Of a DNA stretch of 17,653 bases, positions 751 through 17,126 are shown in pieces (the first letter of the stretch is position 1; each line of letters starts with the position of its first letter). Source of the DNA: Candidatus Kaiserbacteria bacterium (GTDB taxonomy: Bacteria > Patescibacteriota > Minisyncoccia > Phycocordibacterales > UBA2100); NCBI GenBank assembly GCA_003545515.1, contig DPYD01000045.1:1-17653 (forward strand). The letters run 5' to 3'. Below the pieces are notes generated by a model, which made no database searches, was not told where the DNA came from, and worked only from the letters and a program-made list of their open reading frames with translations. The translations under genes and the position numbers were made by a program.

Positions 751-756
751 GGGCGC

Positions 757-1430: not shown

Positions 1431-1437
1431 GGAATAT

Positions 1438-1466
1438 AGTATACTCGCTATCGTCTTTGCGCTTAA
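1438..1466 (-). promoter_or_regulatory. Candidate promoter of the GGDEF gene
   Basis: On the minus strand TATACT (1443-1438) is 7 bases before the ATG, with a weak -35-like TTAAGC (1466-1461) at a 17-base spacing. No Shine-Dalgarno lies between the -10 box and the start, so the transcript would be leaderless. The -35 match is poor, which limits confidence. Confidence 0.35.
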
Positions 1467-1475
1467 TCTTTCGAG

Positions 1476-1646: not shown

Positions 1647-1652
1647 AACCAA

Positions 1653-1760
1653 TTACAACCCGATCGCCTGCATAGCATTTCCCCAACTGTTTCCAACGCC
1701 GAAATAGTAACCTATTGCAATGCCTACAGAGAGTAGAATAATTGTTTTAATAAATCCCAT
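1653..1760 (-). CDS. 35-residue single-pass membrane miniprotein, unknown function
   Basis: The frame runs from ATG (1760) to TAA (1653). The product begins MGFIKTIILLSVGIAIGYYF, one hydrophobic helix with a GxxxG-like spacing at about residues 13-21, followed by a short polar tail ending NAMQAIGL. It would be a tiny inner-membrane protein. It sits just before the basic 56-residue gene and after the DUF2585 membrane protein. A TGATACACT extended -10-like sequence lies 8 bases before the ATG, and the purine run AAGAGGG directly abutting the ATG is too close to be a normal Shine-Dalgarno. Short frames this size arise by chance, so its reality rests on the membrane-helix composition, promoter and tight spacing. 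Confidence 0.45.
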   Translation of the reverse strand: MGFIKTIILLSVGIAIGYYFGVGNSWGNAMQAIGL

Positions 1761-1768
1761 ACCCTCTT

Positions 1769-1777
1769 AGTGTATCA
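1769..1777 (-). promoter_or_regulatory. Extended -10-like box before the 35-residue gene
   Basis: TGA followed by TACACT (box at 1774-1769) is 8 bases before the ATG at 1760. No good -35 was found at 16-18 bases. The surrounding DNA holds imperfect inverted arms (CTTAG near 1766 and CTAAG near 1795 on the plus strand), which could be an operator or chance. Confidence 0.3.
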
Positions 1778-1800
1778 GACGGTTTTCAATACTAAGGTAA

Positions 1801-2370
1801 TTATCCACCGACTGGCGCATTCAGACCGGATTGCCAAACATGTATAAATTCAAACTGATGAAGAAGGCCTATGACATTTAGTGCTAGGTTGTCGCGTATA
1901 GAATAGCCGACAAAAACTTCCATACCAATTCCGAGAACTATAACGGTGAAAATCGGCCACTTCCACGCCATGAGAAATCCGACGACCATCGCTATCGTAT
2001 CCATAACAGAATTGATAATGCTGTCGCCTATGTATCCTTGTGCGAGCGCCTGTTGGCGATAATGCTCTATAACAATCGGAGTGTTCTCAAACACTTCCCA
2101 ACCAATTTCTATACCAAGCGCCAAGAGAAAACGTATTCCGATAGATAGGCGCGGAAAGAAAAACCACAGACCGAGATAAAAAAGAAAACCATGGATGATG
2201 TGCGAGAAGGTATACCAATCCGTGAGATGTTGTGAGTTTCCAGAGCTCAAAACTACCCCTTCCCACACTTTTATGTAGTCACACTCGCAAATTGACGGCT
2301 GACCCAAGATATACAACACGAACACTTGCAAAACAACAAGCGCTAGAGCGCCGAATATAACCCGACTCAT
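1801..2370 (-). CDS. DUF2585/UPF0314 family integral membrane protein
   Basis: This 189-residue protein has about five hydrophobic segments (roughly 4-23, 53-71, 77-92, 118-136, 139-158). Family marks I recognise from UPF0314 proteins are the block VLSSGNSQHLTDWYTFSHII (40-59), the intramembrane motif GIEIGWEVFENT (86-97), GDSIINSVMDT (115-125) and FVGYSIRDNLALNVI (153-167). Several polar and charged residues inside the membrane (His57, His60, Glu88, Glu92, Glu95, Asp124) suggest a buried catalytic or ion-binding site; the biochemical role of the family is not known to me. The family is best known from alphaproteobacteria, so finding it here could reflect transfer. It lies 90 bases after msrB. 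A perfect inverted repeat sits one base before its start codon, overlapping the probable -10 box. Confidence 0.85.
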   Translation of the reverse strand: MSRVIFGALALVVLQVFVLYILGQPSICECDYIKVWEGVVLSSGNSQHLTDWYTFSHIIHGFLFYLGLWFFFPRLSIGIRFLLALGIEIGWEVFENTPIVIEHYRQQALAQGYIGDSIINSVMDTIAMVVGFLMAWKWPIFTVIVLGIGMEVFVGYSIRDNLALNVIGLLHQFEFIHVWQSGLNAPVGG

Positions 2371-2371
2371 A

Positions 2372-2390
2372 ATCTGTTAGTTTAACAGAT
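2372..2390 (-). promoter_or_regulatory. Perfect 8-bp inverted repeat at the DUF2585 start (operator or hairpin)
   Basis: ATCTGTTA, a 3-base spacer and TAACAGAT form a perfect palindrome ending one base before the ATG at 2370. It contains the -10-like TAAACT (2384-2379), preceded by TGT (extended -10), 8 bases before the ATG. No U-run follows, so it is not a terminator. It could bind a dimeric repressor over the -10 element or, if transcribed, hide the start codon. Confidence 0.45.
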
Positions 2391-2460
2391 ACTTCTTGAG
2401 AAAACGTATGGGGGAAGAACAAGGTAAGCCCGTTTGAGATTGAAGCACAATGCTACTCAT

Positions 2461-2853
2461 TCACTTCTCTTCGAGATCGAGGCAGACGGAGTTTATGCAA
2501 TACCGTTTACCTGTTTGTGTTGGTCCGTCAAACATATGTCCTAAATGCGAGCCACATCGAGCGCAAGTAATTTCTGTACGCTCCATGCTGTGTGACGTAT
2601 CATGATGAGATTCCACCGCCCCGGGAAGAGCGTCCTCAAAGGATGGCCAGCCCGTCCCGGAATCAAATTTCGCATCTGAGGAGAATAAAGGATTATCACA
2701 TGCGGCACAGGTATATGTGCCGCCTGCCTTCTCATGTAGATATTTGCCAGTGAATGCCATTTCAGTACCTTTCTCACGTAGAATGCGGTACTGTTTCGGT
2801 GTCAGTACTTTCTTCCAACCCTCCTCCGATTCCGGCATTGGATGTTTCGTCAT
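2461..2853 (-). CDS. msrB: Peptide-methionine (R)-S-oxide reductase MsrB
   Basis: This is a complete 130-residue single-domain MsrB, the usual length. Zinc is held by two CxxC pairs, CAAC (49-52) and CARC (97-100). The family core GTGWPSF (66-72), [10 protein letters not shown] (101-110) and RYCINS (117-122) with catalytic Cys119 is intact, with His103 and His106 in the active-site wall. It reduces the R-epimer of methionine sulfoxide in oxidised proteins, normally regenerated by thioredoxin. It is cytoplasmic, since no signal peptide is seen. No Cys lies before GTGWPSF in the usual resolving position; Cys124 might serve, or a different recycling mechanism applies. It starts 24 bases after typA. 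There is no Shine-Dalgarno, but an extended -10 sits 6 bases before the ATG. No msrA is adjacent. Confidence 0.97.
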
Positions 2854-2859
2854 ATGTAA

Positions 2860-2868
2860 ATAATATCA
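2860..2868 (-). promoter_or_regulatory. Extended -10 element before msrB
   Basis: TGATATTAT (TGn plus TATTAT at 2865-2860) is 6 bases upstream of the msrB ATG, in the 24-base gap after typA. No clear -35 box lies at standard spacing; extended -10 promoters can do without one. The mRNA would be leaderless. Confidence 0.35.
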
Positions 2869-2877
2869 CTACGTCCT

Positions 2878-4716
2878 TCAGGATTGTCGTTTTGCTCGCG
2901 AGCGATCTATTTCTGTAAGTTGTTGTTTGCGCAAACGGACACTAGTGGGAGTGATCTCCAAATACTCGTCTCCAGCCATAACCTCTAGGCCTCTTTCTAT
3001 CGTTAGCTCATAGGGCGGAGTAAGCACTATGGCCTCGTCTGAAGCACTGGCACGCACGTTTGTAAGGTTTTTCCCCTTAGTCGGATTTACCGACATCTCT
3101 TCACCTTTAGCGGTATTACCTATAACCATACCCTCGTACACTTCCGTTGCCGGTGCAATGTACAACACTCCGCGTTCTTGCAGATTCCACAGAGCATACC
3201 CGAGGGCCTTACCGCTTGTCATTGAGATCATGGAACCAACCCCGCGTTTCTTTATCTCACCAGCGTGAGCGCGGAAACCGATAACGCGCGACGAAAGTAT
3301 TCCCTCACCTTTCGTATCTAAGACAAATTGGCTTCTGTAACCTAAAAGACCGCGGGTCGGTCCTTCGAAAATAAGACGCACCTGATTCTCATGCACCTTG
3401 AGATCCTTCATGACAAACTTGCGCGCGCCGAGCCGTTCAATGATAGAGCCCTGATACGTATTTGGAGTATCCACTACTACTTCTTCATATGGTTCCAGCG
3501 TTTTCCCTTCCGTATCTTTCTGGAAAATGACCTGCGGCTCTGATACTTGCATCTCGTACCCTTCGCGCCGCATATTTTCCAACAAGATAGCAATATGTAA
3601 TTCGCCGCGGCCGGAAACCCTGAATGTGTCTCCTGCTTGCCGTGAGCTTGCTTGCCCTGAGGAATTCGAAGGGGTTGAATCGGAATCGAACTCGACGCGC
3701 AGACCGACGTTCACTTCAAGCTCACGTTCCAAGCGTTCACGAATCTGTCGCGAAGTGACATATTTTCCCTCTCTGCCGGCGAATGGCGAGCTGTTAACGA
3801 GGAAATTGAGCGTAATAGTCGGTTCATCAACGTGGATAGCGGGAAGCGGTTCCGCATCCTTATTAGCAGTAATTGTTTCTCCAATGTAAATATCCGGAAG
3901 ACCCGCAACAATGACAATATCGCCACTTTCAACTTTCGCAGTATCAACTCTCTGAAGGCCCTTGAAGGTGAATAATTTCGTTATCTTTCCGGTACGTGTT
4001 TCTCCTGCTTTTTTTATATATACTGCATCACCGGTATGAAGTACTCCATCGTACACGCGTGCGATAGCCAGGCGACCTAGGAAACTGTCATACGCGAGGT
4101 TAAATGGTTGTAAACTCGCGAGTTTTTCCGCAGAAGTTCCAACAGAAGCCGGTGGTACATGTTTAATAATAGTATCCAAAAGTGGCGTCAGATCTTTGGA
4201 GTCGTCCGATAATTTCAACTTCGCTATACCCTGCTTTCCTATCGTATATACAACCGGAAAATCGCACTGCTCATTGGATGCGCCGAGCTCAAGAAACAGC
4301 TCCAACACCTGCTCTTCCGCCAATTCCGGATTTGCCGCTGGTTTGTCAATTTTATTTATAACAACGATTGGTTTCAGACCAAGTTCCAGAGATTTTTTGA
4401 GGACAAAGCGCGTCTGCGGCATTGGACCTTCCTGCGCATCAACCACCAGTAGAACAGAATCAATTGAGCGAAGTACGCGTTCTACTTCTGAACCGAAATC
4501 CGCGTGCCCGGGTGTGTCTACTAGGTTAATTTTTGTTTCCTTATACGGAATAGAGGCATTCTTGGAATAAATTGTTATACCACGCTCTAACTCTAAAGTA
4601 TTCGAATCCATGGATACGCCTTCCTCCGCGACACCCGTTTGCCGTAAGAGCGCGTCGGTTAGAGTTGTTTTTCCGTGGTCAACATGTGCGATTATTGCGA
4701 TGTTACGTATTTCCAT
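2878..4716 (-). CDS. typA: TypA/BipA ribosome-associated translational GTPase
   Basis: At 612 residues this is full length for TypA/BipA. The N-terminal GTPase domain shows G1 AHVDHGKT (10-17), the switch-region ERGITI (44-49), G3 DTPGHADFG (67-75) and G4 NKID (121-124). EF-G-like domains II, III and V follow, then the TypA-specific C-terminal domain (about 480-605) with [13 protein letters not shown] and [14 protein letters not shown]. It binds the 70S ribosome and supports 50S assembly and growth under cold or stress conditions (known for the family). A Ser/Gln/Ala-rich stretch at about 344-362, [16 protein letters not shown], interrupts the normally tight link between the LRVE strand and VSGRGELH; it looks like an in-frame insertion of repeat-derived DNA. 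A terminator-like hairpin lies immediately upstream, ending 8 bases before the start. No Shine-Dalgarno is seen. Confidence 0.97.
3631..3684 (-). repeat. In-frame repeat-like insertion inside typA
   Basis: The DNA encoding TypA residues about 345-362 contains CCTTCGAATTCCTCAGGGC and a doubled CAAGC / GGCAAGC pattern. It resembles the short dispersed palindromic repeats (CCTTCGACAAGCTCAGG type) I recall in CPR and other genomes. The encoded [16 protein letters not shown] is low-complexity and has no counterpart in the typical TypA core. It keeps the frame open. Assignment as a mobile repeat is inferred from composition only. Confidence 0.4.
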
Positions 4717-4724
4717 ACCGTTTA

Positions 4725-4747
4725 AAATAAAAAACTCCGAGTCGGAG
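4725..4747 (-). terminator. Intrinsic terminator after the HAD gene, directly upstream of typA
   Basis: On the minus strand CTCCG-ACT-CGGAG (4747-4735) forms a 5-bp GC-rich hairpin with a 3-base loop, followed at once by TTTTTTATTTT. It lies 34 bases after the HAD stop and ends 8 bases before the typA ATG. It would close the otsA-otsB-ATPase-HAD unit. A TATAGT box (4762-4757) lies just upstream of it, so typA transcripts from that box would begin with this hairpin; it may therefore also act as an attenuator or 5' stabiliser. The stem is short. Confidence 0.55.
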
Positions 4748-4781
4748 ATTTGACTTACTATACGCTAATTTTGGAGAAAAG

Positions 4782-5420
4782 CTATAGCTGATCGGCAAAA
4801 TAATCATGTATGGCTGGCGGAATCTCTGTTGGTGTATTAACGATGCAAAATGGATTGCCTTTTTTCAATATTTCGTGTGAATGCCAGCCCCACGAGACGC
4901 CTATCGAGCCAACGTTCATACTGTTCGCCTCCCGCATATCTCCCAAACTGTCTGTAACAAAGACGCACTCCGAAGCAGATGTCGCGTATTTCTCGAACAC
5001 CATTCGTATCTTTTCTGTTTTATGCGTATGCACATCGTTTCCCATCACTTCTGAAAAATAGCGACCGAGATGATACTTTTCTAGGAAACCCTGAATTGGG
5101 CTCGTTATGGTAGAAGATATTACGATAAGGACATACTCTTTCGATAATGTTTCAATTATTTGATCCATTCCAGTGAATGGTTGCGCCTCTTTCTCAAAAG
5201 CGGGTACATATTCAGCGAACCAATCGAGGTCGTGTCGACATTCGACGTGATTTCCGGGAAGCGATTCCCACTTCCAATCATTAACATTCCCCTCGAACGC
5301 GCGATTATATTCACTACTCGTAATACGCGTACACATCTTTTGTGATACGGATAGCGCAGTGGCATATGAATCGGCGATGACTCCGTCAAAATCAAACAGG
5401 ATAAATCTCTTACGCGGCAT
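4782..5420 (-). CDS. HAD-superfamily phosphatase (phosphoglycolate phosphatase-like)
   Basis: This 212-residue cytoplasmic enzyme has all four HAD motifs: motif I DFDGV with nucleophile Asp10 and acid/base Asp12, motif II Ser102/Ser103 in VISSTITS, motif III Lys134 in HKTEK, and motif IV FVTDSLGDMREA with Asp157 and Asp161. A helical C1 cap lies between residues about 15 and 85. These marks fit subfamily I phosphatases such as phosphoglycolate phosphatase or beta-phosphoglucomutase-like enzymes, and the substrate cannot be read from sequence. Its start lies inside the end of the P-type ATPase gene (11-base overlap), so the two are co-transcribed and probably translationally coupled. Given the sugar-phosphate neighbours, a sugar-phosphate substrate is a reasonable guess. 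An intrinsic terminator follows it. Confidence 0.9.
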   Translation of the reverse strand: MPRKRFILFDFDGVIADSYATALSVSQKMCTRITSSEYNRAFEGNVNDWKWESLPGNHVECRHDLDWFAEYVPAFEKEAQPFTGMDQIIETLSKEYVLIVISSTITSPIQGFLEKYHLGRYFSEVMGNDVHTHKTEKIRMVFEKYATSASECVFVTDSLGDMREANSMNVGSIGVSWGWHSHEILKKGNPFCIVNTPTEIPPAIHDYFADQL

Positions 5421-8115
5421 AACTCATTAGCTTATCTGATTTGCCTAATCGTACGCGGCGGCGCATGTAGAACTTGCGGATTTCCTCGACAACAATGACG
5501 GAAAAGGCGATTGAAACTATGAGAATCCATTCGGAGAGTGTAAGTGCTGAAGTATAAAGTACCTTTTGGAGCGGCGGCAGATACACAGCAAGTAATTGCA
5601 AACAAATAACGATAAATGTCGCCCCAACGAGAAACCTGTTGGAGAAAGGATTCATGGTGAAGAGCGATTCGCTTTCAGAACGACAGTTCCATGCATTGAA
5701 CCACTGAAAAACCGCAAGTGTCGTGAGCGATATTGTAAGAGCTTTCGTGAGATTGTCACCATACAAGCTGAAAAGATACAGGGTGCCAGCCGCCATAGTG
5801 ACGGCCATCAATGGGATCCGATGAGCCATAAGAGCATCAATAAGATATTTCCTCGGATGCTCAAAAGTGCCTTTGAGAAGACCTTTTTCTTTCGGCTCCA
5901 TCGCAAGCGATACATCAAGGAATGGATCGGTAACAAAATTGAGCCAGATTATCTGAGAAGGAAGAAGGGGCAGGGGGAGTGCTAAAAGAAGTGCTCCAAT
6001 AAGAACAAAGATTTCGCTTGCATTAGTAGAAAAAAGATAAAGAATGACTTTCTTAATCGCCTTATAGATACCCCGTCCCTCCTCGATGGCGGAGACGATA
6101 GAGCCAAAATTGTCGTCGAGAAGAACGATGTCGGACGCTTCTTTTGCAACTTCTGTGCCAATTCCCCCCATGGCAACTCCGAGATCCGCCGCGACCAAGG
6201 ACGGAGCATCATTGACCCCGTCCCCCGTCATCGCAATAATAAGCCCAGTGCTTTTATATGCTTTGATAATGCGTAGTTTGTGCTCCGGTGTCATACGCGC
6301 AAAAACACTGATGTTTCCTATTCTTTCGGTAAGCTGATAATCAGAAAGTTCATTCATTTCGTCTCCCGTTATGACGTCCTCTCCGTCATGAAAAATACCC
6401 GCCTCGGAAGCAATAGCCAGAGCCGTCACCTTATGGTCCCCCGTTATCATAACGACTTTAACTCCTGCATCGAGAGCTTTGCGCATAGCATCAGGCACTT
6501 CTGGACGAAGTCCGTCTTTCATCCCCAAAAAACCCACAAACGTAAGGCCTCTTACATCATCCGTAGAAAGCAGATCGCCTGAATGGTACTTTTCAGCGAG
6601 CGCTACGGTACGTAAGCCCTTTTCAGATAGTTTTAAGAAACGAGACTCCAATTCCGTGCGCTCTTGTTCCAAAAGCGAGTGAGGGAAGTCGTCGCGATAC
6701 ACGGTATCGCAATAGGCAAGAATGATTTCCGGGGCACCTGCAACCATCAGTACGTTCTTGTCGTGTGCCTGACGAAGAACGGCGTGATACTTTACGCTTG
6801 AATCGAACGGTAACTCGGACAGAAGGGGTGTATTTTTCTCCACATCGTCTTTATGAAATCCCAACTTCTGTCCAAAAACCTGGAGTGCGGCTTCTGTTGG
6901 ATCTCCTGCTACACGCCAACGCGATAGTTCTTCAGAAAACATAGCGCGAGCGTTCGCGGTTGAAGCGGCAATCTCGCCAAGACGCATGAGACCGAGGTGC
7001 TCCGTCGGAGCGACAAGAACCCCCGCAATGCGTACTTCCCCTTTCGGCTCGTAACCGACTCCTGATATGTCATAGAGTTTCCCGCCAACATACGCCTTTT
7101 CAACTATGATCTCGTTCTTTGTCAGAGTCCCCGTTTTATCAATGGCGATGACGCGCGCTTGGCCTAGCGCCTCGACCGCTTGAAGTCTTTTCACCAATGC
7201 GTTCTTTTTTCCCATGCGCCAAACGCCCGTCGCGAGAACCAGCGTCAACACGATGGGAAGCCCTTCGGGGATAGCTGATACGGCGAGTGCCACAGCTGTC
7301 GTGAACATCCGCTCAGCTGAGTATCCGGCCGCCATTCCGAAAACAAAGAGAAAGGCGCTAACTCCAAACACTACGATTATGATGAGGCGTGAGAGATACC
7401 GTATATTTGTGGCTAACGGAATTTCAGCGACAGAACCGGCTACCTCCTCTGCTATCCTTCCGATGACGGTTCTCGAACCTGTCGCGACTACTACCGCTTT
7501 CCCATTGCCGGCAACGATGTAGGTTCCTTTAAAAACCATGTTTACCTGCTCCGAGGGCGACAGGTTCGGTTCAAATAACGGTTCGCTTGATTTGGCAACC
7601 GGCACCGATTCTCCTGTAAGAGATGCCTCATCCACCGTAAGAGAATGCGAAAGAATTATCCGCGCATCCGCCGGAATCTTTTCCCCTTCCTGTAGAATAA
7701 CAATGTCGCCCTCGACCACTTCTTTGTCCGGCACGATGAACTCCTTGTCGCCGCGTACGACCTCTGCGTTCGTCTCGACGAATGTCTTTAAAGCTCGAAT
7801 GGTATTTTGAGCGCGCCCTTCCTGCACAGTACCTACAATCGAATTCAATATGAGAACGGCAACAATGATCGCGCCGTCAGCGATCTGCCCCATGGCAAAA
7901 ACGATTGCTCCCGCACCGAGGAGAACATAGATAAGAGGGCTCTTAAACTGTCTCAAAAAAAGTAGTGCGAGATTCTCCGCTTTTGCTTCCGGCAATACGT
8001 TTAATCCGGAATCCTTAAGACGCCGCGCCGCCTCATCCGTATGCAATCCTTTCTCACTCGTATCAAGCGCGTGGAACACCTCCTTTATTTCTTGTGTATG
8101 CCAGGCGTCCAACAT
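5410..8115 (-). CDS. P2-type (SERCA/PMR1-like) cation-transporting ATPase, probably Ca2+
   Basis: A complete 901-residue P-type ATPase. Order: N-terminal cation-ATPase domain (1-70), M1-M2, actuator domain with TGES (167-170), M3-M4 with PEGLP (283-287), phosphorylation site DKTGTLT with Asp326, nucleotide-binding domain (about 340-600) with KGAPE-like AGAPE, hinge TGDGVNDAP (630-638) and M5-M10. Ion ligands resemble SERCA site II: Glu284 in M4, and Asn726 and Asp730 in LNFVTDP (M6). Asn698 and Glu701 (M5) and Thr729 keep most site I positions, but the M8 glutamate is Gln804 (QWFNAWN), so site I is altered. Likely export of Ca2+ or Mn2+ with one ion per cycle (inference). It begins 6 bases after otsB, has its own -10-like TACAAT overlapping the otsB stop, and overlaps the HAD gene by 11 bases. 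Confidence 0.95.
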   Translation of the reverse strand: MLDAWHTQEIKEVFHALDTSEKGLHTDEAARRLKDSGLNVLPEAKAENLALLFLRQFKSPLIYVLLGAGAIVFAMGQIADGAIIVAVLILNSIVGTVQEGRAQNTIRALKTFVETNAEVVRGDKEFIVPDKEVVEGDIVILQEGEKIPADARIILSHSLTVDEASLTGESVPVAKSSEPLFEPNLSPSEQVNMVFKGTYIVAGNGKAVVVATGSRTVIGRIAEEVAGSVAEIPLATNIRYLSRLIIIVVFGVSAFLFVFGMAAGYSAERMFTTAVALAVSAIPEGLPIVLTLVLATGVWRMGKKNALVKRLQAVEALGQARVIAIDKTGTLTKNEIIVEKAYVGGKLYDISGVGYEPKGEVRIAGVLVAPTEHLGLMRLGEIAASTANARAMFSEELSRWRVAGDPTEAALQVFGQKLGFHKDDVEKNTPLLSELPFDSSVKYHAVLRQAHDKNVLMVAGAPEIILAYCDTVYRDDFPHSLLEQERTELESRFLKLSEKGLRTVALAEKYHSGDLLSTDDVRGLTFVGFLGMKDGLRPEVPDAMRKALDAGVKVVMITGDHKVTALAIASEAGIFHDGEDVITGDEMNELSDYQLTERIGNISVFARMTPEHKLRIIKAYKSTGLIIAMTGDGVNDAPSLVAADLGVAMGGIGTEVAKEASDIVLLDDNFGSIVSAIEEGRGIYKAIKKVILYLFSTNASEIFVLIGALLLALPLPLLPSQIIWLNFVTDPFLDVSLAMEPKEKGLLKGTFEHPRKYLIDALMAHRIPLMAVTMAAGTLYLFSLYGDNLTKALTISLTTLAVFQWFNAWNCRSESESLFTMNPFSNRFLVGATFIVICLQLLAVYLPPLQKVLYTSALTLSEWILIVSIAFSVIVVEEIRKFYMRRRVRLGKSDKLMSYAA

Positions 8116-8121
8116 TGAGTA

Positions 8122-8922
8122 CTATTGTACCCGATTTCTAACTTTATTCTGTTGTTTTGCAATAAAAAGGGACGAGAGAAAAGAATCTACCTCCCGTCGC
8201 GAGAAAATGTTGTAGCGCGCAAGACTTTTCTTCGTGTGCCCGACACGAATAGTGACACCATTGCGTAAAGTCCTAAAAAGCGCTTCGTCAGTAACATCAT
8301 CGCCCAGAGATATCGGGAGGGTCCCCTTCGGAAGGCGCTTCAGCATCCATAAAGCGACAGATCCTTTATCCCACCGGGTATTCGGACGTATATTGAAAAG
8401 CATATGCCCTCCGACTACAGTGAGTTTCCCGCCCTTTACATACGTATCGAGTACTTTTGAGATGGCGGTAATTGCGTGTTTGCGGAAGCGCGGAGACACC
8501 ATGCGATAATGTATCGATATCGTTAGATCCTTGTCCTCGAGACTCAATCCGAGAAATTGTTTTGATAGCGCTCTGCAGTCCCGCAGAATCATATCAAGTA
8601 TTCTGCGGTTTGAAGTGGGAACGGGCACACTAAAATTTTTAGAGTTAAACTTCCATTCAAGACCGTGATTACCTCCATAAGAGAGCCCGCGAATACCCAC
8701 GCGGCGTCGTACGTCTTTAAGGGCTCGTCCGGAAATAACTGCCACAAAAAATTGTTTTGCGCACGCAACGAGAAGCTTCTTTGTTCGCGCCCCTATCAGC
8801 GCTTTTCTGTGATCGCGGGTTATGGGAGAAAGCACGCCATCAAAATCAAGGAAAAGTGCAATGTGCTTCGCACTCGCAACTCGAGCGAGCACCTTTTTCC
8901 TACTCTCTCGCAAATTATGCAT
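8122..8922 (-). CDS. otsB: Trehalose-6-phosphate phosphatase OtsB
   Basis: This 266-residue HAD enzyme is of the T6PP type. Motif I is LFLDFDGVLSPI with Asp26 (nucleophile) and Asp28. Also present are SGR (64-66), the cap/core marker YGGNHGLEW (82-90), the cap motif around NIRPNTRWDKGSVA with Lys186 (motif III), and motif IV GDDVTDEALF (207-216), which binds Mg. It removes phosphate from trehalose-6-phosphate to give free trehalose in the cytoplasm, completing the OtsAB pathway. Its ATG lies only 3 bases after the otsA stop, so the two genes are certainly one transcript and probably coupled. No Shine-Dalgarno is visible. The C-terminal end is basic (KQQNKVRNRVQ). If the neighbouring synthase uses another acceptor, this could be a glucosylglycerol-phosphate-type phosphatase, but the motifs favour T6P. 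Confidence 0.93.
   Translation of the reverse strand: MHNLRESRKKVLARVASAKHIALFLDFDGVLSPITRDHRKALIGARTKKLLVACAKQFFVAVISGRALKDVRRRVGIRGLSYGGNHGLEWKFNSKNFSVPVPTSNRRILDMILRDCRALSKQFLGLSLEDKDLTISIHYRMVSPRFRKHAITAISKVLDTYVKGGKLTVVGGHMLFNIRPNTRWDKGSVALWMLKRLPKGTLPISLGDDVTDEALFRTLRNGVTIRVGHTKKSLARYNIFSRREVDSFLSSLFIAKQQNKVRNRVQ
8124..8129 (-). promoter_or_regulatory. -10-like box for the P-type ATPase gene
   Basis: TACAAT (8129-8124) lies 8 bases before the ATPase ATG and overlaps the otsB stop codon. No convincing -35 is visible inside the otsB end. It may give an internal leaderless transcript of the ATPase and HAD genes, in addition to read-through from otsA. Confidence 0.33.
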
Positions 8923-8925
8923 GAC

Positions 8926-11160
8926 TCAGGCAAGATTCGCCACTGTTTTCAAAAATTCGGCCGACCAACGGTACACATTGCTGTCTCTCACGGCATTTCG
9001 CATTACCTTCATTCTCCTGTGTACCTCCGCTGGTGACATTGCGAGCGCCTTGGAAATTGCCTCCGCTACTTCCTCCGCGCTATAGGGATTGACGATAAGC
9101 GCACCTTTCAAATCACGTGCGGCGCCGGTGAACTGCGAGAGAATGAGAGTACCGTCTTCTTTGCTTCGCGCGGCTACGAACTCTTTCGCAACAAGGTTCA
9201 TGCCGTCATGGAGCGACGTTACGAGGCAGAGATCTGCTGCAGCATACAAAGGATGGAGCTCCTCATGCGAGAAATGTTTTTTCTCGAAGTGGATGGGGCG
9301 CCAGTTTCCGTCCTCGAATTTTTTGTTTATGCGCCCTGCCTCCGCCGCGCATTCGTCGGCGTAGTCGCGATATTTCTTGCTTCCTTCGCGTGACGGCGAA
9401 GAAATCTGCAAAAATGTGAACTTACTGCGGTACTGCGGATTTGCATCAAGGAAAAATTCTATCGCTTTGAAGCGCTCGAGAATGCCCTTGGTGTAATCAA
9501 GTCGGTCTACGCCTAAACCTATATACTCTGTCTCTATGCCGAGATTTTTGAACGCGTTTTTATCGGGCGGCGTAGCTTTTTCTTCCGTGCCGCCGAGTGC
9601 GGGCGCGCCGTTCGTAAATGCGATGGATATCGGAAACGCTCGGACGTACGATGTGTGCTCATCGCGCGTAATGGAGAACTGCTCGAGATCAATGAGCGCC
9701 TCCACTTCCTTCCCGACAGTCTCAAGAAAGTTGTTGCAATGCTGCTGCGTATGGAACCCGATAAGATCCGCGCCTAGGATCCCCTCCAAAAGCTCTTTGC
9801 GCCACGGACAGATGGAGAATAATTCAGCCGAGGCCCATGGAATGTGCCAAAAGAATCCGACGCTCGCGTCAGGGCGAGCGTTCTTTAGCATCCTCGGCAA
9901 AAGCGCGAAATGGTAATCTTGGACGAGAATGATGGGATTTTGGAGATCCTTTATCTCCGCGAGGATAGTTTCGGCGAATTTTCCGTTAACGCGGCGATAC
10001 GCCATCCAATCGTTCTTGCGGAACACCGGTCTTGTGTGCGCCATGTGCGAGAGAGGCCATAGAGCTTCGTTCGAGAATCCGACGTAAAACCCCTGCACGT
10101 CTTTCTGCGTCAGCCAAACACGCTTCAACGTATAACGCGGTTCTTCTGGCGGCACTTGCACTTTCCCCTGTGCATCAGCGACCTCACGATCGGCATTGCC
10201 GCTTCCGTGTGCCACCCATAAGCCGCCGCATGCTTCCATAACCGGCTCAAGCGCCGTTACCATGCCGCTCGCGGGCACCGACCACTTCGTCTCGTTGCCC
10301 ACCTTTTCGTGCACATACGGCTCACGGTTGGATACGAGCACTATCGGCCGGTTTCTAAGATGTGCTTTTACGAATTCTTTCAGGCGCTCTGCGGTCCACG
10401 GCGTATCGAGCTTCTCGAGGCGCATGCGCGCTTCCTCGCTTGCGGCACTCCGCGCTTGCGACAAGCTCTTTGAGAGTTTGGCTATCTCACTTGCGAGCGG
10501 TTGAAAGAAAAATGAATGCTCAGTGACAACGCCTACAGTGCCGCTTCCTGCGCGCGTTCTTCGCACCGATTCCGCCAGCCGAGAGAGCGGCTTCACGATG
10601 ACCCAGCGCACGATTGCCGCGATGACGATGGAGAAAAAGAGGATTTGCACCGCAAGACGAGTAAGATTATCCAACCAAATACGCGTTATGTATGTGTTAA
10701 TGAAGTCGGCATTTTGCACGAGAAGTAGTGCCCCGACAACCCTTTGTTCTTCATGCAATGGTACTGCGAAAACATAAAAACTACCGTCACTACTTCGTAC
10801 GAATTCTCCCCGCGATGAGTCGGCGTCCATGACGTTCGCCGCAAGAGTATTGCCGCGTATGCTAGCCGGAAGGTTTTCAGATACTGCGATTATTTCCCCC
10901 CGCGGATCCACCACAACAAGTCCGCGCAATCGTTCGTTATCGGTGAACCGGCCAACAGTTCTCTGCAATGTCTCGGCGGAGCCCGCAGAATACGCTGGCT
11001 CAATCGATTCTTTAAGACTGTCCGCAAGAAGGCGCGTGCGATACCCAAGGTCATTGGAAAGAGTAGCTTTTTCCTCGCGCACTTGTACAAAAGTAAACCC
11101 GAAGTTAACTACACTCAAAACAATAACAACGCCGGCAATTATCCAAAAGATGTGCTTCAT
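8926..11160 (-). CDS. otsA: Membrane-anchored sensor-HAMP-trehalose-6-phosphate synthase fusion
   Basis: A 744-residue two-part protein. N-terminal part: TM1 (about 4-26), an extracytoplasmic domain of about 130 residues (28-160) with a Cache/PAS-like core (RGLVVVDPRGEIIAVSENLP at 79-98, then DGSFYVFAVPL), TM2 (about 166-189), a HAMP domain starting KPLSRLAESV with Pro191 and its second helix at 221-237, and a helical linker to about 262. C-terminal part (270-744): GT20 synthase with VSNREPY (276-282), VQDYHFALLP (413-422), FFWHIPW (436-442), GVDRLDYTKG (550-559; Arg553 and Lys558 equivalents bind the donor phosphate) and SLHDGMNLVAKEF (649-661). It joins glucose from UDP-glucose to glucose-6-phosphate. 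The donor loop reads PASGM rather than the usual GG, marking a divergent subfamily. The obvious inference is that an outside signal tunes synthesis. Confidence 0.94.
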   Translation of the reverse strand: MKHIFWIIAGVVIVLSVVNFGFTFVQVREEKATLSNDLGYRTRLLADSLKESIEPAYSAGSAETLQRTVGRFTDNERLRGLVVVDPRGEIIAVSENLPASIRGNTLAANVMDADSSRGEFVRSSDGSFYVFAVPLHEEQRVVGALLLVQNADFINTYITRIWLDNLTRLAVQILFFSIVIAAIVRWVIVKPLSRLAESVRRTRAGSGTVGVVTEHSFFFQPLASEIAKLSKSLSQARSAASEEARMRLEKLDTPWTAERLKEFVKAHLRNRPIVLVSNREPYVHEKVGNETKWSVPASGMVTALEPVMEACGGLWVAHGSGNADREVADAQGKVQVPPEEPRYTLKRVWLTQKDVQGFYVGFSNEALWPLSHMAHTRPVFRKNDWMAYRRVNGKFAETILAEIKDLQNPIILVQDYHFALLPRMLKNARPDASVGFFWHIPWASAELFSICPWRKELLEGILGADLIGFHTQQHCNNFLETVGKEVEALIDLEQFSITRDEHTSYVRAFPISIAFTNGAPALGGTEEKATPPDKNAFKNLGIETEYIGLGVDRLDYTKGILERFKAIEFFLDANPQYRSKFTFLQISSPSREGSKKYRDYADECAAEAGRINKKFEDGNWRPIHFEKKHFSHEELHPLYAAADLCLVTSLHDGMNLVAKEFVAARSKEDGTLILSQFTGAARDLKGALIVNPYSAEEVAEAISKALAMSPAEVHRRMKVMRNAVRDSNVYRWSAEFLKTVANLA

Positions 11161-11412: not shown

Positions 11413-12201
11413 TTATGACAAGAGCGCCCTTCCTCCGTAGAGGCCGCCAGAATCTCCGAGTTCGGCCATCTCGATAACAGGAACTTCGGGATACATTGTG
11501 AGAAGTTTTGTAAACGACTCTCGAACTCGCGAAAGCGGAATTGGATTAACGCCGACTATCATCGAGCCGCCGAGGACGATGGTGTCCGGCGACCAATGCA
11601 CGACTGTGTTGTAGAGGCCGATAGCGAGAATGTCGGCAAGCTTGTTGCGCTCTTCCAGGGAATCGAGCTCTTTCGGATGAATGCCGAATTTCTTCTCGAC
11701 GGCCGTGCCGGAGACGAGATCTTCCAATTCCACGCCGTCAATGAGCTGGCGCCCTATCTCCGGATTATAGGTTGAACGGTCAATGCGACCGTCCACGATG
11801 CGGTCTCCACCGACGCCGGTCGAGACCGTTATGTATGCGCATATTTTTGAGCCGCGCCCCGCTCCATAGTGAACTTCTCCCAAACCTATGAGTGCCGTGT
11901 CATGCACTATTTGCACTGGTGCATCTAGCGCTTCAGAAATCCCAGTCACAAGGTTAGTCCCTTCCCATTGAGGGAGGATTTTGTCCAAGAGAAATACTCC
12001 GTTGACGACTGCGCCTCGAATACCTCCCGCAACGGCTTCTATTCTTTCTCCCGCCGCAACATCGAGAGCAAGCTGTACCAGCATTGCGATACCTTCTTTG
12101 GGATCCTGCGGGGTCGGATACTTTTTCTCCTTCCCGATACCATCTGAAAGAACGGGAGCCACCCGCATAGAAGTTCCCCCTATGTCAAACGCAATTTTCA
12201 T
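11413..12201 (-). CDS. ROK-family sugar kinase (glucokinase-like), lacking the zinc motif
   Basis: A 262-residue actin-fold kinase: phosphate loop DIGGTSMR (6-13), a conserved GGIRG (59-63), catalytic Asp101 in VHDTALIGLGE, the second ATP-binding loop VSTGVGG (126-132), and C-terminal VLGGSMI (209-215). It would phosphorylate glucose or a related hexose with ATP. The ROK signature is incomplete: EIGRQ replaces EIGH, and the CxCGxxGCxE zinc loop before LEDLVSG is absent, so the length is below the usual 290-320. The start at 12201 is chosen because the truncated paralogue at 14728 begins at the same residue and GGAG lies 11 bases upstream. An ATG at 12210 would add MNY and overlap the glycosidase stop by 4 bases. 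It is the last gene of cassette copy 2 and may phosphorylate the sugar freed by the glycosidase. Confidence 0.9.
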   Translation of the reverse strand: MKIAFDIGGTSMRVAPVLSDGIGKEKKYPTPQDPKEGIAMLVQLALDVAAGERIEAVAGGIRGAVVNGVFLLDKILPQWEGTNLVTGISEALDAPVQIVHDTALIGLGEVHYGAGRGSKICAYITVSTGVGGDRIVDGRIDRSTYNPEIGRQLIDGVELEDLVSGTAVEKKFGIHPKELDSLEERNKLADILAIGLYNTVVHWSPDTIVLGGSMIVGVNPIPLSRVRESFTKLLTMYPEVPVIEMAELGDSGGLYGGRALLS

Positions 12202-12206
12202 ATAAT

Positions 12207-13394
12207 TCATTTCTCCATCATATCAAGCACCAATGCGCCCCATGTGAAATCTTTCGCTCCGTAGCCCTCACCTGTTTCGGGATTGTAGTATTCGCGAAAT
12301 CCTGAAAGCTCAAGAAGCTTTACACTTTTTTTGAGAATGTCCTCCGCTTCCGCAGTAAAACCATACCGTAGGAGACCGTGGTATATGAACCAATGTATCG
12401 ACATCCAAATAGGGCCGCGCCAGAATCCGTTGGCGCTATATGACTCCTCGCGCATCGAAACTGTCCGAATACCAAACGGTGAGTAGAATGTCTTAGGATT
12501 ATGAAAATGCGTTTGTACGACCGTCTTCGCTTCTTCCTGCGTATAGAGACCGGCAAAAAGCGGGGCAAAGTGCGCCCACGTCTCCACACGAATCTTCTCA
12601 TGGTCTGCGTCCATGACCGACCAGAAGACGCCGTCCTCAAACATGTACTCGCGCATCGCTTCGGTCATCAGGCCGGCATTCAATGTGCAAAACTCTGCAT
12701 CCTCGGTTCTACCAAGTAACGAGGCCAAGGAACCGAGAATCTTCAAGTTCTCTACCAAAAAGACGTTGAAGGGAACATCTTTCACCCAGAAATTCTTGGA
12801 TGTGCATAACTCCACTTCAAAATTGCAGGCCTTGTTCGCTTCAACGAGCTCTAGCCGGCGGCGGAAATGTGTTTCATTGGAAATATCGAAAGGCACATTC
12901 AGTGCTTTGTCAAAACGCGGCGAATTATCCTCGCCCGATTCGTCGGGATTGATAATGCCCGCAAGGTTATGGTCAAGAGGATCACGTTTGGTAACAAGGT
13001 AGCGATAAAATCGCATCATCGAAGGATATATTTCCTCCAAAAATGCTTTGTTTGAAGTTCTCTCGTAAACATCCTGTACCGCATACGCCAATATCGGCGG
13101 TTGAGTAATTGTGCTTGTGTCATTCTTACCCCAGTCAACTTTTATCGCTTCGGCTTTTACCCAATAAATCATGTGCGGCAACATGCCGTCTTCAAACTGA
13201 TGCGAGACGAGCGAGATCAGTTCCTTTTTTGCGTCTTCAAGACTGAAATGCGAGAGCACGATAGCGTGAAAACACGAATCCCATAGCCATTGGTACGGAT
13301 AGGTGTCGTGAGAAGGAATGGTGTATTGAAACCCTTTTGTCGTCCATCGATTACTTTCCAAAATGCGACGAGCTTCTTTATCAAGATTAAACAT
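12207..13394 (-). CDS. GH63/MGH/trehalase-like (alpha/alpha)6 glycosidase, copy 2
   Basis: A 395-residue protein covering a single (alpha/alpha)6-barrel catalytic domain. Marks: YQWLWDSCFHAI (34-45), TQPPILAYA (97-105), INPDESGEDNSPRFD (148-162) with likely general acid Asp156, the mid-domain block NFWVKDVPFN (201-210), GFWRGPIWMSIHWF (323-336) and REYYNPETGEGYGAKDFTWG (367-386) with likely general base Glu368. Residue roles are by analogy with GH63 enzymes such as mannosylglycerate or glucosylglycerate hydrolases and trehalases. There is no signal peptide, so it would hydrolyse an intracellular alpha-glycoside, possibly trehalose or a glycosylglycerate, with inversion. It lies 24 bases after its GT4 and 5 bases before the ROK kinase. 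The substrate cannot be decided from sequence. Confidence 0.86.
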   Translation of the reverse strand: MFNLDKEARRILESNRWTTKGFQYTIPSHDTYPYQWLWDSCFHAIVLSHFSLEDAKKELISLVSHQFEDGMLPHMIYWVKAEAIKVDWGKNDTSTITQPPILAYAVQDVYERTSNKAFLEEIYPSMMRFYRYLVTKRDPLDHNLAGIINPDESGEDNSPRFDKALNVPFDISNETHFRRRLELVEANKACNFEVELCTSKNFWVKDVPFNVFLVENLKILGSLASLLGRTEDAEFCTLNAGLMTEAMREYMFEDGVFWSVMDADHEKIRVETWAHFAPLFAGLYTQEEAKTVVQTHFHNPKTFYSPFGIRTVSMREESYSANGFWRGPIWMSIHWFIYHGLLRYGFTAEAEDILKKSVKLLELSGFREYYNPETGEGYGAKDFTWGALVLDMMEK

Positions 13395-13418
13395 AATGTA
13401 CTTTCTTGGAAATATAAA

Positions 13419-14591
13419 CTATTGGTACTTCTGCAAACACTTGTTATAAACAGCGATTGTATCTTGCACCATGATCTCAAGTTGATACTTTTCGCGAAAC
13501 ATTTCCCGTCCGGTGCGGCCCATTCGACTAGCCACCTCAGGATGCTTGAGCAAACGTACTATGGCGTTGGCGAGTGATACAGGATCACCCGAAGGTACAA
13601 TGAGGCCATTCTTACGCGCCTTGATAATCTCTGACATGCCGCCCCTTGGGGTTACAATAATGGACTTTCCTGCGCTCATGGCCTCAATGGTTGCGAGGCC
13701 GAACGGTTCATCAAATATCGAAGGGTATACGACAAGCGTACAGGCGGCATACATAAGCGGCATACGTTCAACAGGATATTGATCGACCAATACATCTCGT
13801 TGCAGCCCGAAATGGTTCAGAAGTTCAAGTACTTTTGCCATTCCCTCCTCTTGCAGATTGTGCCAATCGACAACGTCCGTAGTGCCAGCCATAACGAGCA
13901 ACGCATCAGGGATGCGTCTTTTGACCAACCGAAATGCCTGTGCCACTATATGGCTCCCCTTATCAACATGCATGCGTGCAGGATGAAAAATAACATTTCT
14001 GCCACGCAGCTGTGGATATAACTTGTGTGCCTCCTCGGGTTTAGCATCAAAAAAAGGAGTGCCATCAATCCCATGGTGAATTACTGTAACGTCGTGCGAG
14101 GGAGTCCCATACCCCATAAGAGCGTGTTTGATGAACTTACTGACAGCAATCGTATGGTCCCATGCTCCGATGCGTGTGATGTTCATGAAGAGTCGATCGT
14201 TCCATACATTGTGTGCCGTGAGAACGATAGGAATCTTCCTTTTATTTGCCTCGTTCTTTACAACACGTGCATGCGCCTCACTAAAATAATGAAGATTGTG
14301 CACATGGATAAGGTCCGGTTTTGATTCGTCAAAGTAAGACCTGACAGCATCAGCGATAGCACCTTCAAGCGAGGCTGAGACTTTTTTTGAGAGCAGACCA
14401 AGATTCATAAGTGAGACCCGACGAATTTGCACCCCTCGATCGATATACAATTGTGGAATCCCTTCGTGCGAACCAGTTAGCACGGATACCTGATGTCCGG
14501 CACGAACAAGTGCCGGGCAGAGTTGAACAAGATGTGTTTCCACACCGCCGATAACCGGCGGATAAGCCCAATGAAGCATGGCTATTTTCAT
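13419..14591 (-). CDS. GT4-family glycosyltransferase, copy 2
   Basis: A 390-residue retaining glycosyltransferase with GT-B fold. The N-terminal Rossmann domain begins MKIAMLHWAYPPVIGGVETH, with the glycine turn at 15-16 and HVHNLHYFS (96-104). The C-terminal domain has FHPARMHVDKGS with Arg206 and Lys211 for the donor phosphates and the EPFGLATIE site (Glu295, Glu303). The sugar donor and acceptor are unknown; there is no membrane segment. The start at 14591 is chosen because it aligns with the paralogue at 17126 residue for residue. A GTG at 14639 would add 16 residues unrelated to the family and overlap the ROK remnant. No Shine-Dalgarno is seen; TACACT lies 11 bases upstream. It heads cassette copy 2, so it probably makes the glycoside that the next gene's product cleaves, or both act in a cycle. 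Confidence 0.92.
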   Translation of the reverse strand: MKIAMLHWAYPPVIGGVETHLVQLCPALVRAGHQVSVLTGSHEGIPQLYIDRGVQIRRVSLMNLGLLSKKVSASLEGAIADAVRSYFDESKPDLIHVHNLHYFSEAHARVVKNEANKRKIPIVLTAHNVWNDRLFMNITRIGAWDHTIAVSKFIKHALMGYGTPSHDVTVIHHGIDGTPFFDAKPEEAHKLYPQLRGRNVIFHPARMHVDKGSHIVAQAFRLVKRRIPDALLVMAGTTDVVDWHNLQEEGMAKVLELLNHFGLQRDVLVDQYPVERMPLMYAACTLVVYPSIFDEPFGLATIEAMSAGKSIIVTPRGGMSEIIKARKNGLIVPSGDPVSLANAIVRLLKHPEVASRMGRTGREMFREKYQLEIMVQDTIAVYNKCLQKYQ

Positions 14592-14635
14592 GGTGTTACT
14601 AGAGTGTACCTCACGAGAATCTACTGTCCTAGATA

Positions 14636-14728
14636 TCACGCGTGAGGATTTTTCACTTCATCGATGCCACCGTCGGAAACCAACGCCACGCGCATATTTG
14701 TCCCACCTATGTCAAAAGCTATGCGCAT
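14636..14728 (-). pseudogene. Truncated ROK kinase remnant (30 codons)
   Basis: An ATG (14728-14726) overlapping the glycosidase stop as TGATG opens a 30-residue frame beginning MRIAFDIGGTNMRVA and ending VKNPHA before TGA (14638-14636). It matches the first residues of the ROK kinase at 12201 (13 of the first 15 positions) including the ATP phosphate loop, then stops at the point matching YPTPQD. The other 230 or so residues, with the catalytic Asp, are gone; the next gene begins 44 bases on. It cannot be a kinase. Deletion by recombination between cassette copies is the simplest explanation. The intact frame and coupled start leave room for a retained leader-like role, but decay is more likely. 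Confidence 0.87.
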
Positions 14729-15927
14729 CACGATTCCATCATATCAAGCACAAGCCCTCCCCAAGTAAAGTTTATTGCGCCATATCCCCCTCCCGTGTAT
14801 GGGTGGAAGTGTTCTCGAAAACCGCTTTTTTCAAGAAGATTTAGAGAGTGGCTTGCCAGCGTGTTGGCAAGCTCGTCAAAACCGTAATTGCGCAAACCAT
14901 GGAACACGAACCAATTGACTGATATCCAAACAGGTCCTCGCCAGAATCCGTCCGGATTAAACGATGGCTCATCTGCCGAAACCGTAGGGAGAAGGAATGT
15001 TGTTGAAAACTCATTCTCATTTTTAAGATGTTTTTCTACAAGAAATCTTGCCTCTTCCTGTGTCGGGATTTTCGCAAAAAGTGGCGCAAACATCGCCCAT
15101 GTCTTTATCTTTATCTTATCGTAGTGCTCTCCCCGTGTAGACCAAAAGATTCCATCCTCTAACATAAGTTCACGCATTGCGAGTGCGATGCGCCCGGCTT
15201 CAGCATCGAAATATTCAGCATCGTAGCCATTGCTTATCTTCTGTGCAATTTTACTGAGACATCGAAGATTCTCGACCATAATGGCATTAAATGGAACGTC
15301 CTTCACCCAAAAAAAATTCTTCATACAAAAGGGAGCGTCAAATCCGCATTTCCTATTCTCGTCGACCAGCGTAAGTCTGCGTTTGAAGTTCTCGTCCAAA
15401 TCGTGAACAGGGGGAAGATCAAGCGCCTCATCAAAACGGGGCGAATTGTCCTCGCCTGACTCATCTGGATTTATTATGCCAATCAGGTGCCGCTCGTGGG
15501 GATCTCGCTCGTGAAGAAGATACTTATAGAAGTGATAAAGCGCGGGATATATCTTTTCGAGGAATTTCGTGTCGGGATCCTTTTGAAAAATCTTCCACGC
15601 CGCATATGCAAGCATCGGCGGCTGGGTGATGCTCGACGTTCCATCCCGACCCCACGCGATATTTAGGTGATCATGCTCAGCCGCTTCGCTTTTCTCCCAA
15701 TAAATCATGTGAGGTATCATGCCGTTTTCAAACTGCCGAACAGTAAGCGAGAGGAGCTCTTTTTTTCCATCCTCAGGACTTAGGTGAGAAAGAATGATGG
15801 CATGAAAGCAAGAATCCCACAGCCATTGGTATGGGTACGATTGAGGAGACGGGACTGTGTATTGATGCTCACCGCTTTTGCGCCGATTATTCAGAAGGAT
15901 ATCGTACGCTACTTGTTTTAAATCCAT
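14728..15927 (-). CDS. GH63/MGH/trehalase-like (alpha/alpha)6 glycosidase, copy 1
   Basis: A 399-residue paralogue of the glycosidase at 13394. The same blocks are present: YQWLWDSCFHAI (33-44), TQPPMLAYA (101-109), INPDESGEDNSPRFD (152-166) with likely acid Asp160, FFWVKDVPFN (205-214), GFWRGPVWISVNWF (327-340) and REHFHPYTGGGYGAINFTWG (371-390) with likely base Glu372. The block near the base differs (HPYTGGGYG against NPETGEGYG), and an extra stretch AEHDHLNIAWG (83-93) lies before the QPP loop, so the two enzymes may differ in substrate. There is no signal peptide. It begins 23 bases after its GT4. Its stop overlaps the start of the ROK remnant. TATAGT 14 bases before the ATG could be a weak internal promoter. 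Confidence 0.86.
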   Translation of the reverse strand: MDLKQVAYDILLNNRRKSGEHQYTVPSPQSYPYQWLWDSCFHAIILSHLSPEDGKKELLSLTVRQFENGMIPHMIYWEKSEAAEHDHLNIAWGRDGTSSITQPPMLAYAAWKIFQKDPDTKFLEKIYPALYHFYKYLLHERDPHERHLIGIINPDESGEDNSPRFDEALDLPPVHDLDENFKRRLTLVDENRKCGFDAPFCMKNFFWVKDVPFNAIMVENLRCLSKIAQKISNGYDAEYFDAEAGRIALAMRELMLEDGIFWSTRGEHYDKIKIKTWAMFAPLFAKIPTQEEARFLVEKHLKNENEFSTTFLLPTVSADEPSFNPDGFWRGPVWISVNWFVFHGLRNYGFDELANTLASHSLNLLEKSGFREHFHPYTGGGYGAINFTWGGLVLDMMES

Positions 15928-15950
15928 ACACTAGTAATTCTACTATACTC

Positions 15951-17126
15951 TCACGTCTTGTATTTTTTGATGGTATCTCTATAGACGTGAACTATCTCGC
16001 CAACCATTCGTGAAAGAGAATAGTGTAACTTGAACTCTTCCCGACCTCGCTTCCCAATCTTCTGCGCCAAAGCAGAATTCTTAAAAAGCCGTGTTACTGT
16101 GTTTGCGAGCGCCTGATGATTAAACGGCTCCACTATGTATCCGGAAACGCCGTGTCGTACCACTTCCGGCATTCCGCCTGAGCGCGTCACTACGAGTGGT
16201 TTCGCTGAAGCGAACGCTTCAAGCATTGCTATACCGAATGGCTCAGGAGACGTGGAGGGATACACGACTACCTCCGAGGCGGCGTACATAGCAGGCATCA
16301 AACCAATCGGATATTGATCAATGAGCGTGTCTCCTCGTAAGTTGAACAAGTCTAGCAATTCAAGAACGTACGCGATGTCGTGTTGCTGACTTTCTCCCCA
16401 ATCAATAATGTTCTTTGTACCAGCTAGAACGAGAAATGCATCAGGCACTTTTTCTTTGATGAGCCGAAAGGCCTGCACGACGACATCACTGCCTTTGGCT
16501 AATCCCATGCGCGCAGAATGAAATAAAACCCTCTTCCCTTGAAGCATCGGGTATCTGGCATATGCTTCTTTTCCCGACGCTCTAAAGAAAGGCCCCCCTT
16601 CTATGCCGTGGTGAATGGTCACGGCGAGTTTCTCATTCAGCCCGAATCCTTCAAGAGCGCGCTTGATGAAATCACTAACAGCAATAATGCGATCCCATTT
16701 GATATCTCTCGTCAGCTTTACGCACAAAGAGTCGGCCCATATGTTGTGAGCCGTTAGAATAAGTGGAATCCTTCGTCGCTTTGCCTCTGCCTCAACAACT
16801 CTCGCATGCATTTCACTAAAATAGTGCATGTTGTGGACGTGTAGAACATCTGCTTTTGAGCTATCCAAGAAAGCGTTAACGGAATTCCTAATCTCTTTTT
16901 CAAGATTGGCAAAGCCGCGACGATAGAGCCAATTCAAATCCATTATGGGAAGGCGCGTAATATGCACGCCCTTGTCAATAAATTTGCTTGGGGAATCGGC
17001 GTGTGCACCTGTAAGCAAACTGACGGAATGACCTTTCTTGACTAGGGCAGGGCCAAGCAACAAAAGATGAGTCTCCACACCGCCGATGACAGGCGGATAG
17101 CCCCAATGGATCATCGCGATATTCAT
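15951..17126 (-). CDS. GT4-family glycosyltransferase, copy 1
   Basis: A 391-residue GT-B enzyme, paralogue of the GT4 at 14591. Seen: start MNIAMIHWGYPPVIGGVETH with glycines 15-16, HVHNMHYFS (96-104), FHSARMGLAKGS with Arg206 and Lys211 (donor binding) and EPFGIAMLE with Glu295 and Glu303 (the ExxxxxxxE of retaining GT4 enzymes). It is cytoplasmic. The family includes sucrose- and trehalose-type synthases as well as wall and polysaccharide transferases, so the donor and acceptor cannot be named. Glycosidase pairing points to a soluble glycoside rather than a polymer (inference). Its ATG lies 5 bases after the stop of the RCK gene, suggesting it is transcribed together with the ion-transport gene. 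TATAAG lies 4 bases before the ATG and no Shine-Dalgarno is seen. Confidence 0.93.
   Translation of the reverse strand: MNIAMIHWGYPPVIGGVETHLLLLGPALVKKGHSVSLLTGAHADSPSKFIDKGVHITRLPIMDLNWLYRRGFANLEKEIRNSVNAFLDSSKADVLHVHNMHYFSEMHARVVEAEAKRRRIPLILTAHNIWADSLCVKLTRDIKWDRIIAVSDFIKRALEGFGLNEKLAVTIHHGIEGGPFFRASGKEAYARYPMLQGKRVLFHSARMGLAKGSDVVVQAFRLIKEKVPDAFLVLAGTKNIIDWGESQQHDIAYVLELLDLFNLRGDTLIDQYPIGLMPAMYAASEVVVYPSTSPEPFGIAMLEAFASAKPLVVTRSGGMPEVVRHGVSGYIVEPFNHQALANTVTRLFKNSALAQKIGKRGREEFKLHYSLSRMVGEIVHVYRDTIKKYKT

Follow-up and report, generated by a model that had tools for sequence, protein, structure and literature searches.

A trehalose-6-phosphate synthase joined to a WalK-type transmembrane sensor half in Candidatus Kaiserbacteria, with relatives in a dozen phyla

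A sensor half and a trehalose-6-phosphate synthase in one polypeptide

The window, i.e., the whole stretch of DNA that was analysed (17,653 nt, contig DPYD01000045.1 of a Candidatus Kaiserbacteria bacterium), carries on the minus strand (nt 8926–11160) a gene coding for a 744 aa protein, in which the presence of a sensor half and a trehalose-6-phosphate (T6P) synthase in one chain was confirmed and in which the former likely controls T6P synthesis directly. The reading frame is open, with the start used by most aligned relatives, and belongs to a 717 kb genome (79% complete); the nearest named relatives retrieved by the N-terminal search are from Kaiserbacteria, Taylorbacteria, Staskawiczbacteria and Paceibacterota. 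The one-piece build is documented by the domain order, the predicted fold, the intact active-site residues, the constant helix lengths, the phosphatase neighbour and the wide distribution.

The sequence-only reading had proposed a first transmembrane segment (TM1), an extracytoplasmic domain, a second transmembrane segment (TM2), a HAMP domain with Pro191, a helical linker and a GT20 domain, and every part proved right, the named residues included. TM1 (residues 4–22; nt 11095–11151, minus strand as for the other domains and the single genes of the window located below) shows a hydropathy of 2.47 over 19 residues and is modelled as the start of a long helix (residues 2–59). It is followed by a single Cache domain (about residues 29–151; nt 10708–11076) and by TM2 (residues 171–189; nt 10594–10650), recognised by hydropathy and modelled in a helix (residues 152–203) continuing into the helix AS1 of the HAMP-like domain. 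Since the fold search with the full model returned mostly GT20, the N-terminal half was folded as a separate model. The structure model of the N-terminal part, set beforehand as a test, contains (as a monomer) a HAMP-like helix pair and, between the two transmembrane segments, a Cache fold, and the entire N-terminal half of the predicted model superposes on the WalK-type kinases PDB 9a5d and 4ywz, transmembrane helices and HAMP position included. Matches to Cache families stay below the Pfam cut-offs (dCache_1, 17.0 against 45 bits; sCache_3_2, 15.6 against 28.4; Cache_WalK, 15.4 against 27). We regard the architecture of the window protein as near certain.

The HAMP-like domain and the linker

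The domain following TM2 (residues 184–237; nt 10450–10611) comprises AS1 with Pro191, a connector (residues 205–218) and AS2 with Glu225, and is here named HAMP-like because its match lies below the Pfam cut-off. As Pfam HAMP was insufficient as sole evidence, a profile comparison with controls was used, in which 20 rows of the sensor type S1 (residues 180–245; types S1 and S2 are given below) were set against 11 above-cut-off HAMP domains from the window genome and its relatives, leaving out L079, L082 and L083 (3 of 44 rows, neither S1 nor S2). The S1 profile matched the HAMP profiles with a probability of 90.7 and a score of 32.2 over 54 aligned columns, while 60 column shuffles scored at most 16.1 and the control regions TM1 and Cache scored 11.2 and 9.0. 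A HAMP model built from the HAMP domains of relatives gave weak single-sequence matches (window protein, E 0.63; best, L074, E 1e-6). When 55 genomes were searched with PF00672, one of the 17 matches fell at residues 184–233 of the window gene and one in the homologue of genome G029 (13.4 bits).

Conservation was measured in 115 rows, i.e., the window protein and relatives of 700–800 residues from the N-terminal search. Glu225 is kept in all of them and Pro191 in 88; among S1 rows the counts are 22/22 and 20/22, and an Asp or Glu is found at position 225 in 18 of 19 S2 rows. The hydrophobicity of AS2 follows a helical period, equalled in strength by 17 of 5000 shuffles; for AS1 the figure is 93 of 5000, with the peak at 3.2 and not 3.5.

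AS2 and the linker (residues 219–255; nt 10396–10506), which overlap the HAMP-like domain, are constant in length and modelled as a helix (residues 217–251). Indeed, in 115/115 rows TM2 plus AS1 span 53 residues, AS2 plus linker 37 and the stretch from linker to GT20 26, the connector alone varying (12–17 residues). Pairwise identity averages 0.71 (AS2 plus linker) and 0.75 for the linker, next to 0.47 for the TM1 helix, 0.43 for Cache, 0.42 for TM2 plus AS1 and 0.22 for the connector, and to 0.67 and 0.64 for the main GT20 parts, with 0.33 for one GT20 loop. Across phyla, TM2 plus AS1 measure 53 residues in 22/22 S1 and 17/19 S2 rows; AS2 plus linker measure 34 residues (from residue 221) in 19 S1 rows and 35 in the other 3, and 27 residues in 16/19 S2 rows. 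A coiled coil at residues 234–252 is not supported, hydrophobicity there lacking a helical period.

The GT20 domain

The T6P synthase domain (residues 273–742; nt 8935–10344) matches PF00982 over residues 274–740 with 402 bits against a cut-off of 32.5. It scores 444 bits with the NCBIfam OtsA model TIGR02400, below the equivalog cut-off of 565, and 304 bits with the glucosylglycerol-phosphate synthase model TIGR02398, again below cut-off; judged by these scores, the enzyme belongs to the GT20 family and diverges from the OtsA equivalog. All 11 checked donor, acceptor and catalytic positions, whose roles we take to be those known for OtsA, are kept in the window protein. Two further active-site labels were dropped: W40 coincides with no tryptophan of the E. 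coli enzyme under either of two numberings, and the labelling of L365 was uncertain. Among the 115 Patescibacteria rows, the acceptor-site Arg9 is changed in 20 and Trp85 in 19 (e.g., P0015, P0101, P0103 and P0119), and the proteins so altered may use an acceptor other than glucose-6-phosphate.

Distribution and phylogeny

Searches with the N-terminal part at E 1e-3, each scoring about 8000 candidates at most, retrieved 646, 2576 and 1942 proteins; of the 120 listed for each, nearly all carry GT20 according to precomputed Pfam. The 360 listed relatives are named T6P synthase, apart from two "hypothetical protein" and one T6P synthase plus membrane protein, and precomputed Pfam entries assign a Cache-type domain to a few of them and never HAMP, so that annotation gives no hint of a receptor.

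A contig scan with a single protein as query gave no match, and with an alignment as query it gave at least 80 loci, a lower bound for the distribution. Sensor forms, defined by two transmembrane segments and a long N-terminal half, account for 40 of the 80, and were assigned by eye from the alignment to types S1 (21 loci; the type of the window protein) and S2 (19 loci). BLASTP similarity to the N-terminal half of the window protein (E 1e-3 within this small set) is found in 25 of the 40 (19 S1 and 6 S2). The 40 loci, mostly from metagenome bins in which misbinning is possible, are distributed over Acidobacteriota, Omnitrophota, Elusimicrobiota, Levyibacteriota/Patescibacteria, Gemmatimonadota, Planctomycetota, Pseudomonadota, Rokuibacteriota, Nitrospirota, Thermodesulfobacteriota, Myxococcota and Bdellovibrionota; Noviherbaspirillum and Bosea are cultured hosts of type S2.

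Within the genus of the window, GT20 is present in 19 of 52 genomes, and in all 19 with the sensor half, at times split over contigs or frames. In G010 and G050 (L019, L028, L017 and L029) the gene is split over two frames, as by decay or assembly error. In a wider sample of 379 Patescibacteria genomes, GT20 exceeds the cut-off in 37, and the 29 best-matching loci (L034–L062) comprise 11 sensor forms, 2 single enzymes and 16 proteins of 725–790 residues that begin with GT20 and continue into a remainder the size of TPP (trehalose-6-phosphate phosphatase).

A quick tree was built from 88 GT20 domains, with SH-aLRT support only and leaving out L067, L069, L075, L115, L116 and L137 (mostly partial or odd). 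All 46 sensor rows fall in one branch (support 96), joined there by 6 anchor rows and a single short row. The label "sensor" requires 5 changes on the tree, and a single fusion followed by losses fits this topology without being proven by it. Two acidobacterial loci (L138, nt 3937–7500; L142, nt 4711–7470), which pair as sisters in the tree (support 99), have a sodium/proton exchanger (PF00999) fused to GT20 in one frame of 1187 and 919 aa, respectively, perhaps pointing to ion or osmotic coupling; no exchanger was found in the scanned upstream frames of L135, their nearest single enzyme. In a Myxococcales locus (L131, nt 701–7860), GT20 ends a 1435 aa frame with no further Pfam match at E 0.5, adjoining a response-regulator/sigma-54 activator gene.

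Gene neighbourhood

A TPP gene (nt 8122–8922; PF02358, E 1e-33; TIGR00685 above cut-off) begins 3 nt past the T6P synthase stop codon, and 6 nt past the TPP gene lies a P-type cation ATPase gene (nt 5410–8115), whose best match is of the calcium type, which is overlapped by a HAD gene and likely belongs to the same operon. ATPase-like genes are also found near the T6P synthase at the same-genus loci L008, L013, L027 and L030. On the upstream side are encoded a glucokinase-like ROK-family kinase, 252 nt away (nt 11413–12210; PF00480, E 5e-23), and a MGH1-like, trehalase-clan glycoside hydrolase (nt 12207–13394; PF22422, E 2e-76; PF01204 Trehalase, E 6e-12). The stretch upstream of the trehalose genes (nt 12207–17126) holds two consecutive pairs of a GT4 and an MGH1-like hydrolase gene, which look like copies of one module. 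An upstream promoter scan found none, with 0.2 expected.

A TPP match on the same strand within 450 nt downstream was recorded at 11/18 S1 and 16/19 S2 loci; of the remaining loci, 5 have TPP elsewhere in the locus, 5 have none and 3, all of type S1, did not extend far enough to judge. The cluster of Noviherbaspirillum aridicola runs from sensor-T6P synthase through TPP and GH15 trehalase to ROK kinase, covering trehalose synthesis, breakdown and, presumably, re-phosphorylation. A cluster of TPP, GH15 trehalase and T6P synthase is reported from Ramlibacter (PMC3164672). As for histidine kinase domains, HisKA had no match in the partly masked genome of the window and HATPase_c had four, and no claim on the absence of histidine kinases is made.

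Proposed mechanism and alternative explanations

According to the mechanism we propose, the WalK-type extracytoplasmic Cache domain would sense an external stimulus, and TM2 and the HAMP-like helix pair would relay the change across the membrane into the helical linker. The linker would join GT20 right ahead of the first strand of that domain, a strand leading to Arg279, which binds glucose-6-phosphate. By shifting the N-terminal Rossmann domain, or the dimer geometry, the linker might set the rate of T6P synthesis, the adjacent phosphatase converting T6P to trehalose. The dimeric state, the effect of the linker on activity and an environmental stress, possibly osmotic as the sequence-only reading suggested, as stimulus are presumed here. 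Control by the sensor gains indirect support because the length of AS2 and linker is constant and their conservation high. In mycobacterial OtsA, which is reported to be tetrameric (dimers occurring elsewhere) and regulated by metabolites, the N-terminal domain is dynamic and regulation allosteric, which makes an N-terminal control plausible (PMC6879718).

Several observations weigh against sensor control. The Pfam HAMP match (PF00672) reaches 14.2 of the required 25 bits (E 0.043, residues 184–233), the same model at E up to 1 matched only 4 of 44 relatives, and in 12 of the 14 gene-carrying genomes among the 55 it had no match there (one of the 14 holding but a fragment of the N-terminal half). 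Type S2 (21 rows) scored 7.7 against the HAMP profiles, i.e., no HAMP match, and has Pro191 in 0/19 rows, this residue being absent also from 27/115 Patescibacteria rows. Conservation of the N-terminal part is inflated in these 115 rows, which were picked by similarity of residues 1–270, and no helical period emerges at residues 234–252 (a signal of equal strength in 2218 of 5000 shuffles). The modelled Cache fold is that of the window protein, of type S1; type S2 accounts for 19/40 loci. Finally, the rhizobial forms L106, L110, L113 and L032 (Aminobacter plasmid) have one transmembrane anchor and an N-terminal half too short for Cache.

These last proteins, found in Mesorhizobium and Aminobacter, with a variable distance from anchor to GT20 and nested within the sensor branch, would suit a membrane tether, by which the N-terminal half merely positions trehalose synthesis near a transporter, an ATPase or the envelope while the kinase-derived sensor is silent. 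The lack of a recognisable HAMP in S2, the P-type ATPase gene that follows in the window and the exchanger-GT20 fusions, as another way of joining the membrane, point in the same direction. A tether, however, would need neither the constant TM2-AS1 and AS2-linker lengths nor the high linker identity, and of the 53 rows in the branch 46 retain the two-segment sensor-like half and 6 are anchor-only, so that we hold this explanation to be unlikely, while deserving serious attention. That the product is not T6P, owing to another acceptor or donor (e.g., as in glucosylglycerol phosphate), appears quite improbable: the TIGR02398 match, the OtsA equivalog cut-off likewise unreached and the changed Arg9 and Trp85 would allow it, whereas the window protein keeps every residue checked, adjoins a TPP gene and scores higher with the OtsA model. 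We consider highly improbable a reverse or bifunctional signalling, in which the enzyme would be a metabolic sensor reporting substrate state outward or to a partner. Receptor LapD has been reported to signal in both directions across the membrane (PMC5231407) and an Arthrobacter OtsA to act also as stress sensor (PMC5685639); against this, five genes neighbouring the window gene were tested at the 40 sensor loci (TPP at 33, GT4 at 8, the others at no more than 2) and no signalling partner is among them.

Returning to sensor control, we lean slightly towards a family of receptor T6P synthases in a dozen phyla, possibly of single fusion origin, in which an external stimulus sets compatible-solute synthesis through a Cache-HAMP-helix relay, a transmembrane allostery with no kinase, second messenger or transcription step.

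Relation to known systems and significance

Soluble OtsA/Tps1 enzymes (GT20; PDB 5jij, 1uqu) share with the window protein the GT-B fold, the active-site residues and the TPP partner gene but lack transmembrane segments and sensor. OtsA-first two-domain proteins of other Patescibacteria, of the same phylum and with the same enzyme domain, have a TPP-sized C-terminal part instead of an N-terminal sensor. The Arthrobacter OtsA is likewise a T6P synthase tied to stress sensing, described as a self-assembling enzyme in an abstract that mentions no receptor domain (PMC5685639). WalK-type TM-Cache-TM-HAMP histidine kinases (PDB 9a5d, 4ywz) resemble the window protein in the N-terminal half and carry a kinase core after HAMP, where the window protein, with a divergent HAMP and no kinase domain among its Pfam matches, carries a biosynthetic GT20.

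HAMP modules are known to drive signalling outputs, and HAMP-coupled receptor enzymes include diguanylate cyclases and the phosphatase SiaA. Both give weak matches to the N-terminal half and, like the window protein, combine an outside sensor and an enzyme in one polypeptide, yet they make or remove signals, whereas the product of the window protein is a precursor to a bulk protectant. A HAMP domain linked to a T6P synthase, GT20 or glycosyltransferase domain was not found in open-licence PMC papers, the single paper mentioning both HAMP and T6P synthase doing so in separate contexts, and broader searches of these papers returned no comparable receptor enzyme among the matches listed, in agreement with the initial view that no characterised example exists. 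What is new is the output domain and a wide, little-noticed family, the modules themselves being known.

If sensor control holds true, HAMP driving protectant synthesis would be about the shortest possible response to osmotic or envelope stress, a direct route useful to reduced genomes such as that of the window (0.7 Mb). The window's type can be expressed in other hosts, and the sensor-T6P synthase could act as a chassis for chimeric receptors. Cells might turn on sugar protection straight from an outside cue.
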